Below, in pieces: positions 3,540 through 40,871 of a stretch of DNA of 64,000 nt. This DNA comes from an uncultured Pelagibacteraceae bacterium. Lineage in GTDB: Bacteria; Pseudomonadota; Alphaproteobacteria; Pelagibacterales; Pelagibacteraceae. Made by a program: the position numbers and the translations under genes. Every line of letters starts with the position of its first letter. Position 1 is the first letter of the stretch. Below the pieces are notes generated by a model. The model was not told the origin of the DNA. It saw only the letters and a program-made list of their open reading frames with translations, and did no database searches. The DNA lies in the NCBI GenBank assembly GCA_902538915.1, contig CACBGZ010000002.1:1-64000 (forward strand). Direction: 5' to 3'.

Positions 3540-4249
3540 TATTTTTTCTTTTTATCAGGGGTTTTTTTTGCTTTTTCAGTTAATTCTATTTTTTCTAAAA
3601 TTGTTAATTTGTTAATATTTTTTACAGATTTTTTAACAAAAACTTCAGAATTTTTAGAGCCTGGTATCGAACCTTTCAAATACAAAAGAGCGTTGTCTAA
3701 ATCTGTTTTGATAATTTCAATGTTTTGCATTGTTCGAATTTTATCACCCATATGACCAGCCATTTTTTTTCCTTTAAAGACTTTACCGGGGTCTTGTCTT
3801 TGACCAGTTGAGCCGTGAGATCTATGAGAAATTGATACACCATGAGATGCTCTCAAACCACCAAAATTATGTCTTTTCATTGCTCCAGCAAAACCCTTTC
3901 CTATAGTTCTTGATCTAGTATCAACAAATTTAACATCCTTAAAGATCTCAAGTCCAAATTCGTTTCCTTCCTTATAATTTTCAATATTTGAGACCCTAAA
4001 TTCCTTTAACTTCTTTTTTGCCTCAGTATTTTTTTTTGCAAAATAACCTTTCATAGACTTTGTAATTTTTGAATTTTTTATTTTTCCGTATCCAAGTTGA
4101 ACAGCTCTGTAGCCTCTTTTTTCAACATCAATAATTTGTATAACTCTTGCCTTTTCCATTTTAAGTACTGTTACAGGCACCAACTGACCAGTTTTGTAAA
4201 ATTCTCTGGTCATGCCAACTTTTTTTCCTATTAACGCAATTTCACTCAT
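3539..4249 (-). CDS. rplC: 50S ribosomal protein L3
   Basis: IGKKVGMTREF...SHGVSISHRSHGSTGQRQDPGKVFKGKKMAGHMG. Confidence 0.97.
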   Translation of the reverse strand: MSEIALIGKKVGMTREFYKTGQLVPVTVLKMEKARVIQIIDVEKRGYRAVQLGYGKIKNSKITKSMKGYFAKKNTEAKKKLKEFRVSNIENYKEGNEFGLEIFKDVKFVDTRSRTIGKGFAGAMKRHNFGGLRASHGVSISHRSHGSTGQRQDPGKVFKGKKMAGHMGDKIRTMQNIEIIKTDLDNALLYLKGSIPGSKNSEVFVKKSVKNINKLTILEKIELTEKAKKTPDKKKK

Positions 4250-23647: not shown

Positions 23648-23733
23648 TGGTGCCCTCGGCCAGACTCGAACTGGCACTCCGCAAGCGGCAAGGATTTTAA
23701 GTCCTTTGTGTCTACCAATTTCACCACGAGGGC
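23648..23733 (-). tRNA. trnL: tRNA-Leu(UAA), intact copy at left edge of tandem elements
   Basis: Minus strand GCCCTCGTGGTGAAATTGGTAGACACAAAGGACTTAAAATCCTTGCCGCTTGCGGAGTGCCAGTTCGAGTCTGGCCGAGGGCACCA; anticodon TAA. Confidence 0.97.
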
Positions 23734-23802
23734 ATTAATGAATTTCATGAGTATTTATGCTAATATTTATAATTGAACAAGATGAATAAGTAAATTTTTT
23801 TT
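23695..23802 (-). repeat. Attachment-type direct repeat copy 1: tRNA-Leu 5' half (from anticodon loop) plus upstream promoter
   Basis: TTTTAAGTCCTTTGTGTCTACC...GAATAAGTAAATTTTTTTT; 108 bp, 1 mismatch to copy 2. Confidence 0.95.
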
Positions 23803-23816
23803 AATTTATCTCTCTA

Positions 23817-23837
23817 GGTACTAGTTTAGTACTAGTT
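23817..23837 (+). repeat. Element 1 left twin arm repeat GGTACTAGTTTAGTACTAGTT
   Basis: Two GTACTAGTT units 11 bp apart; exact 21-bp copy at 25373-25393. Confidence 0.9.
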
Positions 23838-23856
23838 ATCCTATAAAATCCTATAA

Positions 23857-24405
23857 TTATTTTTGTCTACAGTTTGTGTGAACAATCTTACTACTACCAA
23901 CTCTTTGCGAAACACAATACATTCTAGGAGTTGAAGTATTTGCTGTTGTACCATATTTAGCATCAACAATAGCATTTAATATTTCATCACCATGATTGTA
24001 TAAAACCCAGGCAGCAGATTCCCAAAATTTCTTTAAAAAACCGTCCTTGTTAGTTTTTTCAATTTTTTCTCCATTTGAATTTTCATAACTAAATGTAAGT
24101 TCAATATTTTCTTTTTCTTTAGCCTCTTTTTGTAAAATATATTCTTGTACAGAAACATAGTCAGAAATAGATTTATCAGATTTGTTTAAAAGATATTGCT
24201 TATGAATATCATTCCCTATTTTAAAATGTTTTGCCATGCATTTGTGCCACGGAGAACCCCAGCTTTTATCTGCCTCGCTAACACCAATATTTCTACAAGA
24301 GTTTGCAGCAAATGCTCTTGTTTTGTCTCCAGAATAATCCATCTCTTTTCCAAAACAACCAGATAAAAGAAAAGCTAAAAGAGTAAAAATTGTAATTTTT
24401 TTCAT
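23857..24405 (-). CDS. Putative lipoprotein, element 1 cargo
   Basis: Signal peptide and lipobox LLAFLLSGC; no recognised domain. Confidence 0.75.
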   Translation of the reverse strand: MKKITIFTLLAFLLSGCFGKEMDYSGDKTRAFAANSCRNIGVSEADKSWGSPWHKCMAKHFKIGNDIHKQYLLNKSDKSISDYVSVQEYILQKEAKEKENIELTFSYENSNGEKIEKTNKDGFLKKFWESAAWVLYNHGDEILNAIVDAKYGTTANTSTPRMYCVSQRVGSSKIVHTNCRQK

Positions 24406-24413
24406 TAGATAAC

Positions 24414-25355
24414 CTATAAAATCCTATCTAATTCTTTTATCGGACCTTTGAAAGCTTTTTCTAATTTAATCAAATGATCTACTAAAAAATTGTGAATATC
24501 TTCCCATGTTTCTTCATCTTGAAAACCTCCTAAATCAGATTTAAATGTTATTCTACAAGCCCTAGAGTCATCTAGTCTTTTCCATTCTAATTCATTACCA
24601 AAATCTTTTTCAATAGATGTTTTATGCTTTTCCAAATGATTATAAATTTTTAAATTTGCCTCTTTACCTTCTTCTTTTCCTCTATCAATGTATATTTCTA
24701 CTTGACCAGATCTATTCATTGCAGCAACAAGATAATTAACCCCTCTTACACCAGCACTTACACCCATATAATTTCTGCCTTTTGGAGCTGTATTACTGTA
24801 GATATTACTTTTTTGTTTTAATTTTTCATAAAAAGCTGACCAAAAATTAAATTTAATTTTCTCTTTTTCCGAGTCTTCTTCCTTAATTTTTCCAACCTTT
24901 GTAATATTTTCATCTGGTCCTGATAATAAAAAAAATTGAGCTCCAGGCTCGCTATCTTTGATTTTAAAAACTTGAATTTTTACTAAAAAAAATAAACATG
25001 TTTTTACATTGGCATTGAGCCATTCAATTGCTCTGTGGTGCTCTGGTTTAACATCTTCTACTATCCAAATAGCTTTTTTTGTATTTTCCACATTACTTAT
25101 ATAGGTTAATAACTTACCTAAATGATCGTGATCAGATTTTTCAAATTGATTTTCAATTATTACTTTTCCCTGATCATCCTCAGCTACTATATCTACTTTA
25201 AAAGTATCTAATTTTTTTTCACTTTCAGGATCTTGAATATTTAATCCTAGATCTTCATTAAGTAATGCAATGTTCTGGACTAACCATGGTGTAAAATCTC
25301 TATCTTCTGTCTTCCAGATATCTCTTATTTTTTGTTTTTTAAGTCTTGAAACCAT
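24414..25355 (-). CDS. DUF4268-like restriction-endonuclease-fold protein, element 1 cargo
   Basis: FKVDIVAEDDQGKVIIENQFEKSDHDHLGKLLTYIS (PD-(D/E)XK-like, D-x(n)-ExQ variant). Confidence 0.7.
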   Translation of the reverse strand: MVSRLKKQKIRDIWKTEDRDFTPWLVQNIALLNEDLGLNIQDPESEKKLDTFKVDIVAEDDQGKVIIENQFEKSDHDHLGKLLTYISNVENTKKAIWIVEDVKPEHHRAIEWLNANVKTCLFFLVKIQVFKIKDSEPGAQFFLLSGPDENITKVGKIKEEDSEKEKIKFNFWSAFYEKLKQKSNIYSNTAPKGRNYMGVSAGVRGVNYLVAAMNRSGQVEIYIDRGKEEGKEANLKIYNHLEKHKTSIEKDFGNELEWKRLDDSRACRITFKSDLGGFQDEETWEDIHNFLVDHLIKLEKAFKGPIKELDRIL

Positions 25356-25372
25356 AAATATTTATCTCTTAA

Positions 25373-25393
25373 GGTACTAGTTTAGTACTAGTT
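25373..25393 (+). repeat. Element 1 right twin arm repeat GGTACTAGTTTAGTACTAGTT
   Basis: Exact 21-bp copy of 23817-23837. Confidence 0.9.
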
Positions 25394-25450
25394 TGACAAA
25401 AATAATTATTAAGAATTTTAAATAAAATAATCTTTATATTTTCAGAACTT

Positions 25451-25497
25451 ATAGGATTTTAAAGGATTTAGACTGCTCTGGACTACTATGGACTGAC
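25451..25497 (+). repeat. Element 1 right-end 10-bp-periodic iterons (AGGATTT x2, GACT x3)
   Basis: AGGATTT at 25453 and 25463; GACT at 25471, 25481, 25491. Confidence 0.75.
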
Positions 25498-25517
25498 TTT
25501 TACTTCTATCCCTCGCC

Positions 25518-25625
25518 TTTTAAGTCCTTTGTGTCTACCAATTTCACCACGAGGGCATTAATGAATTTCATGAGTATTTATGCTAATATTTATAATTGAA
25601 CAAGATTAATAAGTAAATTTTTTTT
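25518..25625 (-). repeat. Attachment-type direct repeat copy 2 (truncated tRNA-Leu 5' half plus promoter)
   Basis: 108 bp, identical to copy 1 except GATTAATAAG vs GATGAATAAG. Confidence 0.95.
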
Positions 25626-25638
25626 ATTTTATCTATCT

Positions 25639-25660
25639 GGCTTCTAGTTAGCTTCTAGTT
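25639..25660 (+). repeat. Element 2 left twin arm repeat GGCTTCTAGTTAGCTTCTAGTT
   Basis: Two GCTTCTAGTT units 11 bp apart; same geometry as element 1. Confidence 0.88.
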
Positions 25661-25673
25661 ATCCTACAAAATC

Positions 25674-26012
25674 CTAGAGCCAATCACTACACCAGGTAAA
25701 TACATCTGCTTCAAATTTTATATCATTAAATTTAAGCAGTTGTTTGTATCTTTCTAATCTATGCTTTTTATCAAACTTAGTGAGGAAATTGTATATTTTA
25801 TCATAATTTAATCCCTTCAGATCTGTTTTTTTTATATCTACATATTCTTCATAATCTAAACCACATATAGAAAATTTTTTTTTAGGATCAATATGTTCTG
25901 AGTAGCTAATGGTGTCTTTACTCTCTTTTAATATATCATAATAATGAGCCACTTCATTATTTCTCTCAAAAAGATAATCTTTTCTGAAATCAAACAGTTC
26001 AAGTTGTTGCAT
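25674..26012 (-). CDS. Hypothetical protein with N-terminal QLELF motif, element 2 cargo (start refined to ATG)
   Basis: The ORF-track start is TTG; CAT at 26010-26012 gives the ATG start MQQLELFDFRKDYLFE. Confidence 0.7.
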   Translation of the reverse strand: MQQLELFDFRKDYLFERNNEVAHYYDILKESKDTISYSEHIDPKKKFSICGLDYEEYVDIKKTDLKGLNYDKIYNFLTKFDKKHRLERYKQLLKFNDIKFEADVFTWCSDWL

Positions 26013-26112
26013 ATATTTGGAATTGTTAAAGTTAGAAATAAACTTTAACAATAATTAATATAATTAGCAAAAATGGCAGAAGTTTGGTTGATCAATCAAA
26101 ATATTAAAAAAT

Positions 26113-28992
26113 TTACAAAAGGTTATTATTAAATATTTCATCTACAAATTGTAAAGCTTCCTCATGATTTTTAAACTTAAAAAACTTTTCTTTCATTTTT
26201 TTACTAATTAATTGTCTGATTTCTATTTCTGGATAAGGGATTTTGAAACTCTTCAGTGTAGGTTGGTTAATACCACCCTGACCTCCTTTGGTTGATGCGT
26301 AATTAATATATTTTCTAAAGTTTGATGAATACAAGTATGCAAATGTATACCAATAATCTAATTCCGGTTTTAGTCTCAATATAAATACATGTTCATTGAC
26401 AATAGCTTTTTGCTGTAAGTTATTATGCACTAAAATTGTTTTACCCGACCTAGCTCCATCTTTTGTAATTAAAATGTCATTTTTTTTAATAGTCCATTTA
26501 GCTGGACAAGTTGAAAAGTATTCTTCACTTACAAATTCTTTTGATGATAAATCAAATTCACCCCCTTCACCAAGATGTCCTCCACCAATAGACAATACAC
26601 CTTTTTCTATTCTACCAGTGCCTCCTTTTGGTCTTTTACCAGATATCAAATCATCGAGAATAAATTCTTTTAGAGGTATAAAATCGCAATTAAAATTAGG
26701 TGTTAAATCCTCTTCCAAAAAGGGATTAAAAGTACCATCTTTAGAAACAAATTTTTTAAAGTCTAGATATAGTAAAATATCTTTAAATTTATCATTTTTT
26801 GATTTTGAGTTTTTAAAATATTTTTCTAAATTTTCACCTAAAAGTATTTTTTTTACATAATAAGAAATATAATTCTCATCATTAGTTTTTTCTTCATTGA
26901 ATAAAATACCATCATTAAAAGTTTGAATGCCCTCAAATCCACGCCTTTCAGAAAACTCATAACCAAGTAATTTTTTTTGTTTTTTTGATTTTTTGTCATC
27001 AGGTGGATCCAAATCAGCAATCAAAATTTTATCATTATTGGGTTTATTTTTTCTGATCATAAACAAAATCATTGTTCTCATAGGGGTTTTTCTGAATGCT
27101 TTGTCCCCAAGTTTTATCAACGCTTTAATTTCAAAATTCTCTAAAAGAAACTCTCTGGTATTAGAATTAATTTCATCAGTTGTAGTTAATAAGGACCTTG
27201 GTACAATTACCCCAATAATTCCATTTTCCTTTAAAAGCTGTTTTGCCCTCTCTAAAAATAAACATTCAATTTTATCACTAGTAGGGCTTAAATATTTATA
27301 TAATGAAAAATTATTTTCCCCATCGATAATTCTATTTTTAAAATTATCAACTGAGTATGGGGGATTTGCTACAATTATATCAAACACTTGATTATTTTGA
27401 TCGCTCTTTTCAGATTTTAATAATTTTTTATAATCATGGTTATAGAATGGAAGTAAACCATCGGTGCAAAAAGTATTTGCATCACCATCTCCATTGAGAA
27501 ATGAATTTACTTTTGTTGTTTTTGCTAGTCTGTAATCTTTTTCAATTGCATAAACATATTCATTGCACCATTTATAATTCTTTTTATTCTGAGTGAAATT
27601 ATCAACAGCAGTTTTTCCTCCCTCAATCTCTTTAATGTTTAACTCATCAATTACTTTTTGAATTAATGAAATCATTTCAGTAATAAAATGACCACTACCT
27701 GATGCATAATCAATTACATAAGGTAAGAAATTTATATCCTTATTTTTATTCTTATTTTTAATAATATTTTCAATAGGAATACTATTACAAATAAAAGATG
27801 CTAAAGGTATTGGCGTAAAAAATTGTCCAGATTCTTGTTTAATCCCTGTATCTAAAATTTTTTCAAAAAAGTCACCAAGATATTGATGCTTTGTACTGTA
27901 TTTAAGTTTATAAGTTTGTAAAAGTTGAACAATTGATTTTACAATAAATGCATTTTCTTCAAAAGTTTTTTTGTTAAAAATTTCTTTGAATTCAAATTCA
28001 TTAGAAACAATTGATGTATTTTCATTTAATTTAAGGTACTTTTTGAAGCTATTTAAATTCTTAAAATCATCTTCAATTAAATTATTTTTACTATCAAAAA
28101 TATCAACATTTAAATAATTTTTTGTGCCTTTTATATAAAGATCTTTTAATCTTTTAATAAACGAAGTGTAGTCGTCACTTTCTAACCACTGAAAATCTAA
28201 AGATTTTTTAAAGTTTTGATCCTCATCAAAAATTTTACAAATAAATAAATTAAAAATCTTATTAAATGCATTTGTTTTATCAGAAACAATATTCCTCCTT
28301 AATATTTCAGCAAATTGGTTAAAAATGTAACCACCATCATCTGAATTTATATCCCTTAAATCACTATAGTCTAATCTTTCTATACCTAGTTCGTAAGGTT
28401 TTTTACCCTCTTCAAATAAACCTTTAGATATAAAAATTTTGTCCCATTTTTCGTATAAATCTTTCAAATTTTTTGAGGATGACATTTCTTTGGTTGGAAG
28501 AAAATAATCGTATTGTCTTTGAATAGTGTCTTTTTCAAATTTTGATGTATAAATAGAAACAATCTTAGTATCTTTTTCATTTAAAAAATAACTGAGTAAT
28601 TGGTTTTTCTTCCAATCAGTTGTTGTTTTTTCTTTTGAATTATTAAACTCTTTACCAAAAGTCTTACAATCAATTAAGGCCCAAGATTTTTTTTTATTGT
28701 CTAAAATTTGTACATCACAATAACCAGCGCCAGCATTATGCCCAAGAGAAAAAGGTTTTTCTAAAACTATATTCTCACTGTTATAGCCAATATTTAGTAG
28801 TTTAATTACAAATTCTAAAACAACTAAATTTTCCTGTTTTTCTTTTAAATCATTTATTGTCTTTCGGTGAATTTTTATATCACCATAATCAATTACGAAA
28901 TCTTCTGAAACATATATTTTATTTTTTCCTTTTGAGAATAAATAAGAATTCTCTTTTTCTTTAAAATTTAATAAAGATAAATATTTTTTCAT
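26113..28992 (-). CDS. Single-polypeptide restriction-modification protein (type IIG-like: nuclease, N6-adenine methylase, specificity domain)
   Basis: N-terminal YCDVQILDNKKKSWALIDCK (PD-(D/E)XK-like); motif I VIDYASGSGHF; motif IV DIIVANPPYS; C-terminal ISGKRPKGGT...GGINQPTLKSFKIPYP (HsdS-like TRD). Confidence 0.85.
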   Translation of the reverse strand: MKKYLSLLNFKEKENSYLFSKGKNKIYVSEDFVIDYGDIKIHRKTINDLKEKQENLVVLEFVIKLLNIGYNSENIVLEKPFSLGHNAGAGYCDVQILDNKKKSWALIDCKTFGKEFNNSKEKTTTDWKKNQLLSYFLNEKDTKIVSIYTSKFEKDTIQRQYDYFLPTKEMSSSKNLKDLYEKWDKIFISKGLFEEGKKPYELGIERLDYSDLRDINSDDGGYIFNQFAEILRRNIVSDKTNAFNKIFNLFICKIFDEDQNFKKSLDFQWLESDDYTSFIKRLKDLYIKGTKNYLNVDIFDSKNNLIEDDFKNLNSFKKYLKLNENTSIVSNEFEFKEIFNKKTFEENAFIVKSIVQLLQTYKLKYSTKHQYLGDFFEKILDTGIKQESGQFFTPIPLASFICNSIPIENIIKNKNKNKDINFLPYVIDYASGSGHFITEMISLIQKVIDELNIKEIEGGKTAVDNFTQNKKNYKWCNEYVYAIEKDYRLAKTTKVNSFLNGDGDANTFCTDGLLPFYNHDYKKLLKSEKSDQNNQVFDIIVANPPYSVDNFKNRIIDGENNFSLYKYLSPTSDKIECLFLERAKQLLKENGIIGVIVPRSLLTTTDEINSNTREFLLENFEIKALIKLGDKAFRKTPMRTMILFMIRKNKPNNDKILIADLDPPDDKKSKKQKKLLGYEFSERRGFEGIQTFNDGILFNEEKTNDENYISYYVKKILLGENLEKYFKNSKSKNDKFKDILLYLDFKKFVSKDGTFNPFLEEDLTPNFNCDFIPLKEFILDDLISGKRPKGGTGRIEKGVLSIGGGHLGEGGEFDLSSKEFVSEEYFSTCPAKWTIKKNDILITKDGARSGKTILVHNNLQQKAIVNEHVFILRLKPELDYWYTFAYLYSSNFRKYINYASTKGGQGGINQPTLKSFKIPYPEIEIRQLISKKMKEKFFKFKNHEEALQFVDEIFNNNLL

Positions 28993-29020: not shown

Positions 29021-29041
29021 GCTTCTAGTGTACTTCTAGTT
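29021..29041 (+). repeat. Element 2 right twin arm repeat GCTTCTAGTGTACTTCTAGTT
   Basis: Two units 11 bp apart; matches element 2 left repeat. Confidence 0.85.
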
Positions 29042-29100: not shown

Positions 29101-29147
29101 AGATTTTGTGATTTTAAGATTGTATGAGACTACCAGAGACTAACTAA
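29101..29147 (+). repeat. Element 2 right-end 10-bp-periodic iterons (GATT, GACT, GACT)
   Basis: GATT at 29118, GACT at 29128 and 29138; distances to the core match element 1. Confidence 0.7.
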
Positions 29148-29164: not shown

Positions 29165-29271
29165 TTTTAAGTCCTTTGTGTCTACCAATTTCACCACGAG
29201 GGCATCTGTTATTTTCATGAGTGTTTATGCTAATATTTATAATTTAACAAGATGAATAAGTAAATTTTTTT
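29165..29271 (-). repeat. Attachment-type direct repeat copy 3 (truncated tRNA-Leu 5' half plus promoter; probably the ancestral chromosomal copy)
   Basis: Identical over the tRNA half; seven substitutions upstream, five clustered just before the mature 5' end. Confidence 0.93.
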
Positions 29272-39650: not shown

Positions 39651-40871
39651 ATGAGTGAATTTTCTCAAAATGGAATAATTTCTACCCTACACGACTTTGG
39701 AACTAGATCTACAGCCGAAATTGAAAAAGACTTATTAAAATTTTCTAAAGAGAGAAAAATGGAATTAATTTTACCTTGTCTTTATTCAGAATTAGAGGGG
39801 AATGCTTTACCAAATATTGTAGAGGAAATCAGCAAAACAAAATATTTAGATCATATTATAGTTGGTCTTGATAAGGCGAATGAAAAGCAAGCAAAAAAAG
39901 CCTGGAAGTTTTTTAAAAAATTAAAAACACCCTTTTCTTTATTATGGAATGATGGACCTGCATTAAAAAAACTTGATAAAGAATTAAAGAAAAAAGATCT
40001 TTCACCGAGCGAACTTGGCAAAGGAAGAAATGTTTGGTATTGCATAGGAATGTCTATAGCAAGAGACACAGCACGATCTGTTGCTCTTCACGATTGTGAT
40101 ATAAAAACTTACGATAGAAGAATGCTGGCAAAACTTTTTTATCCGGTTGTAAATCCTCTTTTTAACTTTGAATTTTGTAAAGGATATTATCCAAGAATTG
40201 CCAATGGAAAGATGAATGGTCGTGTTGCAAGATTATTAGTTTTTCCATTGTTAACAGCTTTAGAGAAGACAATTGGCGCAAGTGATTACTTAGAATTTAT
40301 GAAGTCTTTTAAATATCCGTTAGCCGGAGAATTTTCATTTAGACGGAACGTTTTACCTGAATTAAGAATTTCATCGGATTGGGGTATTGAAGTTGGGATT
40401 TTATCTGAGATGCAAAGAAGCTTTTCTCCACAAAATATTTGTCAGGTAGATTTAGCTGATACTTATGATCACAAACACCAGATTTTATCTAGTGATGATG
40501 AGACCAAAGGTTTATCTAGAATGTCAATTGATATTATTAAAACATTTATAAAAAAGTTAGCAACTCAAGGAAATACTTTCAGTAGAGAAAAGTTTAGATC
40601 TCTTAAAGCAACTTATTATAGATCAGCTTTAGATTTAATCGATATCTATAGAAGTGATGCTTACATGAATGGTCTAAAATTTGACTCTCATATTGAGGAA
40701 AAAGCTGTTGAATTATTTGCAGTTAATATTATGAAAGCAGGTGAAGCTTTTATTCTTAATCCAATGGATACACCTTTTATACCTACGTGGAGTAGAGTTA
40801 AAAGTGCAATACCAGATTTTTTATCAAGATTAAAAGAAGTTGTTAATGAAGATAACAAAAAATATTCTTAA
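39651..40871 (+). CDS. Glucosyl-3-phosphoglycerate synthase-like GT81
   Basis: ILPCLYSELEGNALPNIVEEI, GKGRNVWYCIG, VALHDCDIKTYDRRMLAKLFYPVVNP, SDWGIEVGIL. Confidence 0.85.
   Translation: MSEFSQNGIISTLHDFGTRSTAEIEKDLLKFSKERKMELILPCLYSELEGNALPNIVEEISKTKYLDHIIVGLDKANEKQAKKAWKFFKKLKTPFSLLWNDGPALKKLDKELKKKDLSPSELGKGRNVWYCIGMSIARDTARSVALHDCDIKTYDRRMLAKLFYPVVNPLFNFEFCKGYYPRIANGKMNGRVARLLVFPLLTALEKTIGASDYLEFMKSFKYPLAGEFSFRRNVLPELRISSDWGIEVGILSEMQRSFSPQNICQVDLADTYDHKHQILSSDDETKGLSRMSIDIIKTFIKKLATQGNTFSREKFRSLKATYYRSALDLIDIYRSDAYMNGLKFDSHIEEKAVELFAVNIMKAGEAFILNPMDTPFIPTWSRVKSAIPDFLSRLKEVVNEDNKKYS

Follow-up and report, generated by a model that had tools for sequence, protein, structure and literature searches.

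A phased GACT array and matched 11-bp addresses in integrase-less elements at tRNA-Leu(UAA) of SAR11-type bacteria: a probable excisionase operator

Recombination directionality factors (RDFs), or excisionases, bind cooperatively to direct repeats that lie one helical turn apart, and at least three adjacent operators are needed (PMC7498355). The att site of phage 186 contains five such operators (PMC7498355), and RdfS binds with about one protomer per 10 bp (PMC11963761). Marine cassettes bounded by tRNA repeats and hitcher elements in general are already known (PMC7771536, PMC10872708, PMC11389934). The locus described here lies in a 64-kb stretch of DNA from an uncultured Pelagibacteraceae bacterium (contig CACBGZ010000002.1, positions 1 to 64,000), which is referred to as the window. 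Two tandem elements, element 1 (E1) and element 2 (E2), are present in it, and each has a phased GACT array at its right end. This array is part of the attP arm of tyrosine-recombinase elements that insert in the anticodon loop of tRNA-Leu(UAA) in SAR11-type bacteria. Based on the sequences, it seems likely that an 11-bp repeat at both ends of each element, termed the address, is the integrase arm site and that a cooperative excisionase uses the GACT array as its operator, with both proteins supplied in trans.

The phased array and its conservation

The core repeat of these elements corresponds to the 5' half of tRNA-Leu(UAA) up to the anticodon loop. E1 and E2 (1.8 and 3.6 kb) are bounded by three copies of it, each with the upstream region, at 23695, 25518, and 29165. 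As in an attP site, the core has the same sequence as a segment of the target tRNA gene and is present at both ends of the elements. Repeated sites, the addresses, are also found in the arms on both sides of the core, where integrase would bind. No integrase was identified in E1 or E2 when their proteins were compared with Pfam, and neither appears to be an autonomous element. They lack a mobility enzyme and have intact recognition sites, as hitcher elements do.

In E1, GACT is found at 25471, 25481, and 25491, and the core (TTTTAAGTCC) starts at 25518. E2 has GATT at 29118 and GACT at 29128 and 29138, with the core starting at 29165. The GAYT offsets from the core are -47, -37, and -27 in both elements, and the positions and equal distances given in a preliminary description of this DNA are exact. 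The pattern GAYT-N6-GAYT-N6-GAYT matches twice in the window (25471 and 29118), compared with 0.11 matches expected from dinucleotide shuffles. Near the core there are thus three or more direct repeats with a spacing of about one turn of DNA, as in an RDF operator. The same description held that AGGATTT repeats at 25453 and 25463 add to the phasing. The pair is real and is spaced by 10 bp in the E1 right arm, but its GATT is only 6 bp before the first GACT, which places the pair outside the GACT register. Relatives mostly have GATTTTATAG GATGTTTTA GACT, in which the distance from GATT to the first GACT is 9-10 bp. No sigma-70 promoter was found at the E1 right arm.

Relatives carry arrays of similar elements at the same tRNA-Leu(UAA). 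The pattern RGACT-N5-RGACT-N5-RGACT was searched for in 300 genomes of the genus, and 61 phased matches were listed in 51 genomes, compared with two for the reversed pattern that served as a control. Among 76 distinct right ends with a displaced core, GACT is present at -47, -37, and -27 in 59, 64, and 67, fractions that are biased since part of this set was picked by the GACT pattern. In a non-redundant set of 23 right ends, each less than 85% identical to the others, the GACT positions average 97% majority and the spacers 58%, and phased GACT occurs at no other offset. Judged from these alignments, the phase of the array is under constraint. Motif and phase are thus kept at -47/-37/-27 in the right ends of relatives, and loss in close homologues was not seen. 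The suggestion that a cooperative protein occupies helically phased sites is supported, as the tetranucleotide and its phase are kept across independent elements with different cargo. The array is also present in the integrase-bearing satellites L004, L080, L019, L023, L167, and L168. The integrase of L116, which is 31% identical, goes with GGTC/GGTC/GATT at unchanged offsets. A pattern scan of GTDB r220 gave no match.

The address and the satellite integrases

The preliminary description overlooked the address, which is a more telling feature than the GACT array. Nearly every complete element has this tandem 11-bp repeat at both ends, on the left at core+122 to +124 (with two exceptions at +112) and on the right at core-142 to -146. 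Its first five or six bases vary between elements and agree within an element. A total of 24 kinds were found, including GTACTAG (E1), CTTCTAG (E2), GTGCTGG, GTACGAG, TTCCGAG, and CGTCTAG. After redundant cargo and one empty element were dropped, the left copy is identical to a right copy in 50 of 51 elements, and all four copies are identical in 42. Shuffled left/right pairings gave a mean of 3.6 matches and a maximum of 14.

The address is not tied to the type of cargo because one 2.65-kb element is found with CTACTAG (L129), with TTTCTAG (L149), and with a mixture of the two (L138). These versions are 99.7-99.9% identical inside, with about five differences in 2.4 kb, and the differences cluster between the core and the left address and between the right address and the core. 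In an excised circle, the attP arms form one contiguous block of about 300 bp, and exchange of this block would therefore switch both addresses together. Turnover of the address by such exchange can be inferred from these sequences. The differing addresses of array neighbors were also considered as a sign of selection, but zero collisions in 15 pairs, compared with 0.7 expected, are not significant, and L135 nearly collides. A 275-bp element (L142:823-1097) consists of the core, a single address, and the full right arm without cargo. It may have arisen by recombination between a left and a right address, or it may reflect a collapse in the assembly.

Related satellites of 7.7-10 kb are present in viral contigs and as four integrated copies, with a tyrosine integrase of 531-558 amino acids (aa). 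The viral contig L004 (7.8 kb) is probably circular because it has a 99-bp terminal repeat. The core is unchanged in it, the addresses are matched, and the array reads AGACTATGTG AGACTACCAG AGACTAGC. Its genes encode a tyrosine integrase of 545 aa together with a primase/helicase and a RusA-like protein, and elements of this type may be phage satellites. L080, L019, and L023 are relatives of L004, and the sequences of L004 and L023 were taken from a set of viral contigs. Satellites are integrated at tRNA-Leu(UAA) in G261 (10.2 kb, with two cargo elements beside it), G227 (L167), and G179 (L168), and at tRNA-Ser(UGA) in G385. All of the integrated satellites have matched addresses on reading, with some right-arm copies diverged. 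The related satellite in tRNA-Ser(UGA), L169:1505-10511, has the matched address TGTCTCAAG and is without the GACT array. The core-proximal right arm of L167, GAGACTACCAGAGACTAACTAAATTGTGAATCCTCTGCC, is common to E2, and the address and core flank of L168 are common to the cargo element L135. In L004, L019, L080, L167, and L168, the 5' part of the integrase gene contains the right address, which is thus coding sequence in these satellites and may also control how the integrase is expressed.

The satellite integrase family is found in six of 389 genomes of the genus. Most of these genomes possess only a simple recombinase of 310-325 aa (Phage_integrase). No integrase was found among 141 proteins from cargo elements, and none is among their commonest Pfam and PHROGs families. 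Several of the cargo elements (L061, L116, L138) encode runs of type IV pilin-like proteins, and 26 of the 141 proteins match N_methyl. The L004 integrase had no match in the phage collection, and a PDB sequence search with the satellite integrase also gave none. Further scans of viral contigs returned the same few satellite loci only. The pelagiphages HTVC105P and MedDCM-OCT-S35-C6 were considered as direct helpers, since they have the same tRNA core and an adjoining integrase, but were rejected because their arms are unrelated. Their loci (L077 and L078, at about 3860-4200) contain the 42-bp tRNA-Leu core exactly and arms with GTGCATAG-type repeats.

Variation among the satellite integrases is much greater in the N-terminal domain (residues ~26-150) than in the remainder of the protein. 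L004 and L019, which have different addresses, are 78% identical in this domain and 93-96% identical elsewhere. L004 and L080 share an address and are 97% identical in the domain. L023 has an N-domain like that of L167 (77%) and a similar address, while its middle part is 90% like L004. Address similarity follows N-domain identity when the rest of the protein is allowed for (partial correlation 0.71, permutation p 0.0004; seven integrases, two of them nearly identical). The substitutions between L004 and L019 crowd in strands 3 and 4 (9/18 compared with 17/105, p 0.003). The predicted structure of the domain has a predicted local distance difference test (pLDDT) score of 84, and its best fold matches, at Z 8.3-9.7, are integrase arm-type binding domains (HAI7, HPI, and P4-like); the first unrelated entry scores Z 4.3. 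The full-length model (pLDDT 34) was uninformative. Elements related to E1 and E2, including L004, L167, L168, and L116, thus encode an integrase with a predicted arm-binding fold, as expected of an attP system. Because the N-domain tracks the address and has this predicted fold, the address is most likely the integrase arm site.

What may bind the array

If the address is the arm site, then the constant GACT array would be read by something constant. The array fits an excisionase operator because it lies between the arm site and the core, is found on one arm, and consists of head-to-tail repeats one turn apart. Candidate excisionases are small helix-turn-helix (HTH)-like proteins of 92-97 aa, encoded at 7756-8034 in L167 and at 2367-2660 in L004. 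Integrase would bind the address copies with its N-domain and would also bind the core. The small HTH excisionase of a satellite would bind the GACT array head-to-tail, one protomer per turn, and the resulting filament would bend the right arm and make excision possible. A satellite with an integrase that reads the address of a cargo element could then excise and integrate that element in trans, and the address would limit which helper can act. Movement in trans can be inferred from the shared core, the shared arms, and, for some elements, a shared address. The array probably lets the enzymes of separate satellites move cassettes, guided by the matching address at both ends.

Several points weigh against an excisionase operator served in trans. 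The candidate excisionase is weak, since AlpA/HTH_7 is below the cut-off for the HTH protein of L167 and there is no match in L004. In the genome that holds the window, which is 79% complete, the one Phage_integrase gene belongs to the 310-325-aa type. None of the satellites found has the address GTACTAG or CTTCTAG. That some satellite and cargo addresses coincide was rejected as proof of pairing; by itself this is not significant, because 43% of random addresses with that composition are also present in the cargo set. The link between N-domain and address comes from a small set of integrases, and the satellite L169 has no GACT array.

The GACT repeats could instead be the arm-type sites of the integrase, like P'1-P'2-P'3 of lambda, and the address could serve otherwise, for example as iterons for a replication initiator or in the regulation of the integrase promoter. 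Tandem arm sites of about 10 bp are common in the att sites of tyrosine recombinases. A precedent is the attP of ICEMlSymR7A, which has five tandem arm sites (PMC11963761). The change of the motif to GGTC with the diverged L116 integrase, while the phase is unchanged, and the loss of the array in the divergent L169 also favor this explanation. However, GACT is constant across integrases with arm-binding domains that are only ~45-50% identical, while the address varies with the domain. The array is also on one side only, close to the core. Arm-type sites at GACT seem unlikely, at roughly one chance in four.

It is also possible, but improbable, that the array is coated by a second conserved DNA-binding region of the 545-aa integrase (residues ~150-240) or by a host protein. 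This region is 94-98% identical among the integrases that share GACT (nearly invariant in L004, L080, and L019), and its sequence departs from theirs in L116 and L169, the satellites with an altered or missing GACT array. However, its role as a binding region is putative, and a host protein would not explain a motif that changes with the integrase lineage. Movement of the elements by a host XerC/D-type recombinase, with no satellite integrase, appears very improbable. The single 310-325-aa Phage_integrase gene of most genus genomes and the rarity of satellite integrases would suit it, but simple recombinases lack an arm-binding domain (PMC8138268) and the elaborate arms are common to integrase-bearing satellites at the same site. 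Chance repeats or plain ancestry without function can practically be dismissed, since homologous ends would show some conservation but not GACT kept so far above its interleaved spacers, nor so many phased matches over the reversed control.

The excisionase operator is the preferred explanation, and there is about an even chance that the elements form a two-tier system. Rare integrase-bearing satellites and abundant integrase-less cassettes would use one tRNA site and one phased excisionase array, and a four-copy, fast-switching address, read by a fast-evolving arm-binding domain, would decide the helper. SAR11-type bacteria are among the most abundant marine cells, and their streamlined genomes contain few obvious mobile genes. 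If true, a shared site and movement in trans would explain how restriction-modification, pilin, and other cassettes are exchanged without carried integrases. A natural collection of arm-binding domains, paired with over 20 matched DNA addresses, could reveal how the domain reads DNA, and the matched addresses also open the co-evolution of helper and hitcher specificity to study.

Features of the window and comparison with known systems

The features of the two elements are given in Table 1. Inverted AGGATTT iterons are present in the left arm of most cargo elements, and the satellites L004, L019, and L023 are without them. Three loci contain a 2177-bp interval between core copies that lacks arms (L060:6753-8929, L121:5770-7946, and L147:4300-6476, in oriented coordinates). 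Its end resembles a sugar-synthase-like gene in the window (39651-40871), as if a chromosomal gene pair lay between two tRNA half copies.

Table 1. Coordinates of the tRNA gene, core copies, arm repeats, and cargo genes of E1 and E2 in the window
Feature	Position	Strand	Method or remark
Intact tRNA-Leu(UAA), attachment gene	23648..23733	-	ARAGORN
First core copy (tRNA 5' half and upstream region), left end of E1	23695..23815	+	98% identical to 25518-25638
E1 left address, GTACTAGT x2, period 11, core+123	23818..23836	+	
E1 left inverted iterons, ATCCTATAAAATCCTATAA, 10-bp repeat, reverse of right-arm AGGATTTTATAGGAT	23838..23856	+	TRF; in most elements
E1 cargo, 182 aa, lipoprotein-like N-terminus, no Pfam match	23857..24405	-	
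E1 cargo, 313 aa, DUF4268 (E 2.8e-33)	24414..25355	-	Pfam
E1 right address, GTACTAGTTTA x2, identical to E1 left address, core-144	25374..25394	+	TRF
AGGATTT x2, 10 bp apart, upstream part of iteron array	25453..25469	+	TRF
E1 phased array, GACTGCTCTG GACTACTATG GACTGAC at -47/-37/-27, probable excisionase (RDF) operator	25471..25497	+	
Second core copy, E1 right end and E2 left end	25518..25640	+	
E2 left address, CTTCTAGT x2, period 11	25641..25659	+	TRF
E2 left inverted iterons, ATCCTACAAAATCCTAGAG	25661..25679	+	
E2 cargo open reading frame, 125 aa, no Pfam match	25674..26051	-	
E2 cargo, 959 aa, N6 methylase, Eco57I, and specificity domain, type IIG-like restriction-modification	26113..28992	-	Pfam
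E2 right address, CTTCTAGTGTACTTCTAGT, matches E2 left address, core-143	29022..29040	+	
E2 array, GATTTTGT GATTTTAA GATTGTATGA GACTACCAGA GACTAAC, final three repeats at -47/-37/-27	29102..29144	+	
Third core copy, displaced chromosomal 5' half, no address after it	29165..29271	+	

The tRNA-repeat cassettes and additive islands of marine bacteria are also small cassettes bounded by partial tRNA repeats, but arm anatomy, phasing, and an address are not described in the relevant passages of those sources (PMC7771536, PMC10872708). Virion-encapsidated integrative mobile elements (VEIMEs) and tycheposons are likewise marine satellites or integrative elements at tRNA genes, a likeness by description that follows their mention in PMC11389934. 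In the literature covered, from which many subscription papers and the original VEIME and tycheposon papers are excepted, neither the phased arm nor the matched variable address nor the link between address and arm-binding domain was found described. The P4-like and genomic-island integrases (HPI, HAI7) share the fold of the N-domain and a tRNA target, whereas here the integrase is ~545 aa, and a change of arm-binding domain between close relatives goes with a change of arm site. The closest likeness of the array itself is to the RDF operators of lambda (X1-X1.5-X2), phage 186 (Apl), and P2 (Cox), which are three to five short direct repeats, one turn apart, on one arm beside the core (PMC7498355). 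The GACT motif is unusually strictly conserved, whereas RDFs usually tolerate sequence variation, and the RDF protein is a candidate encoded outside E1 and E2. Hitchers such as miniature inverted-repeat transposable elements (MITEs), clusters of attC sites lacking integron-integrases (CALINs), and satellites also lack the mobility enzyme and keep its recognition sites (PMC11389934). E1 and E2 would be hitchers that depend on an integrative satellite; their attP arms are complete, their variable addresses are matched, and they lie outside the classes found in the relevant passages of that source.
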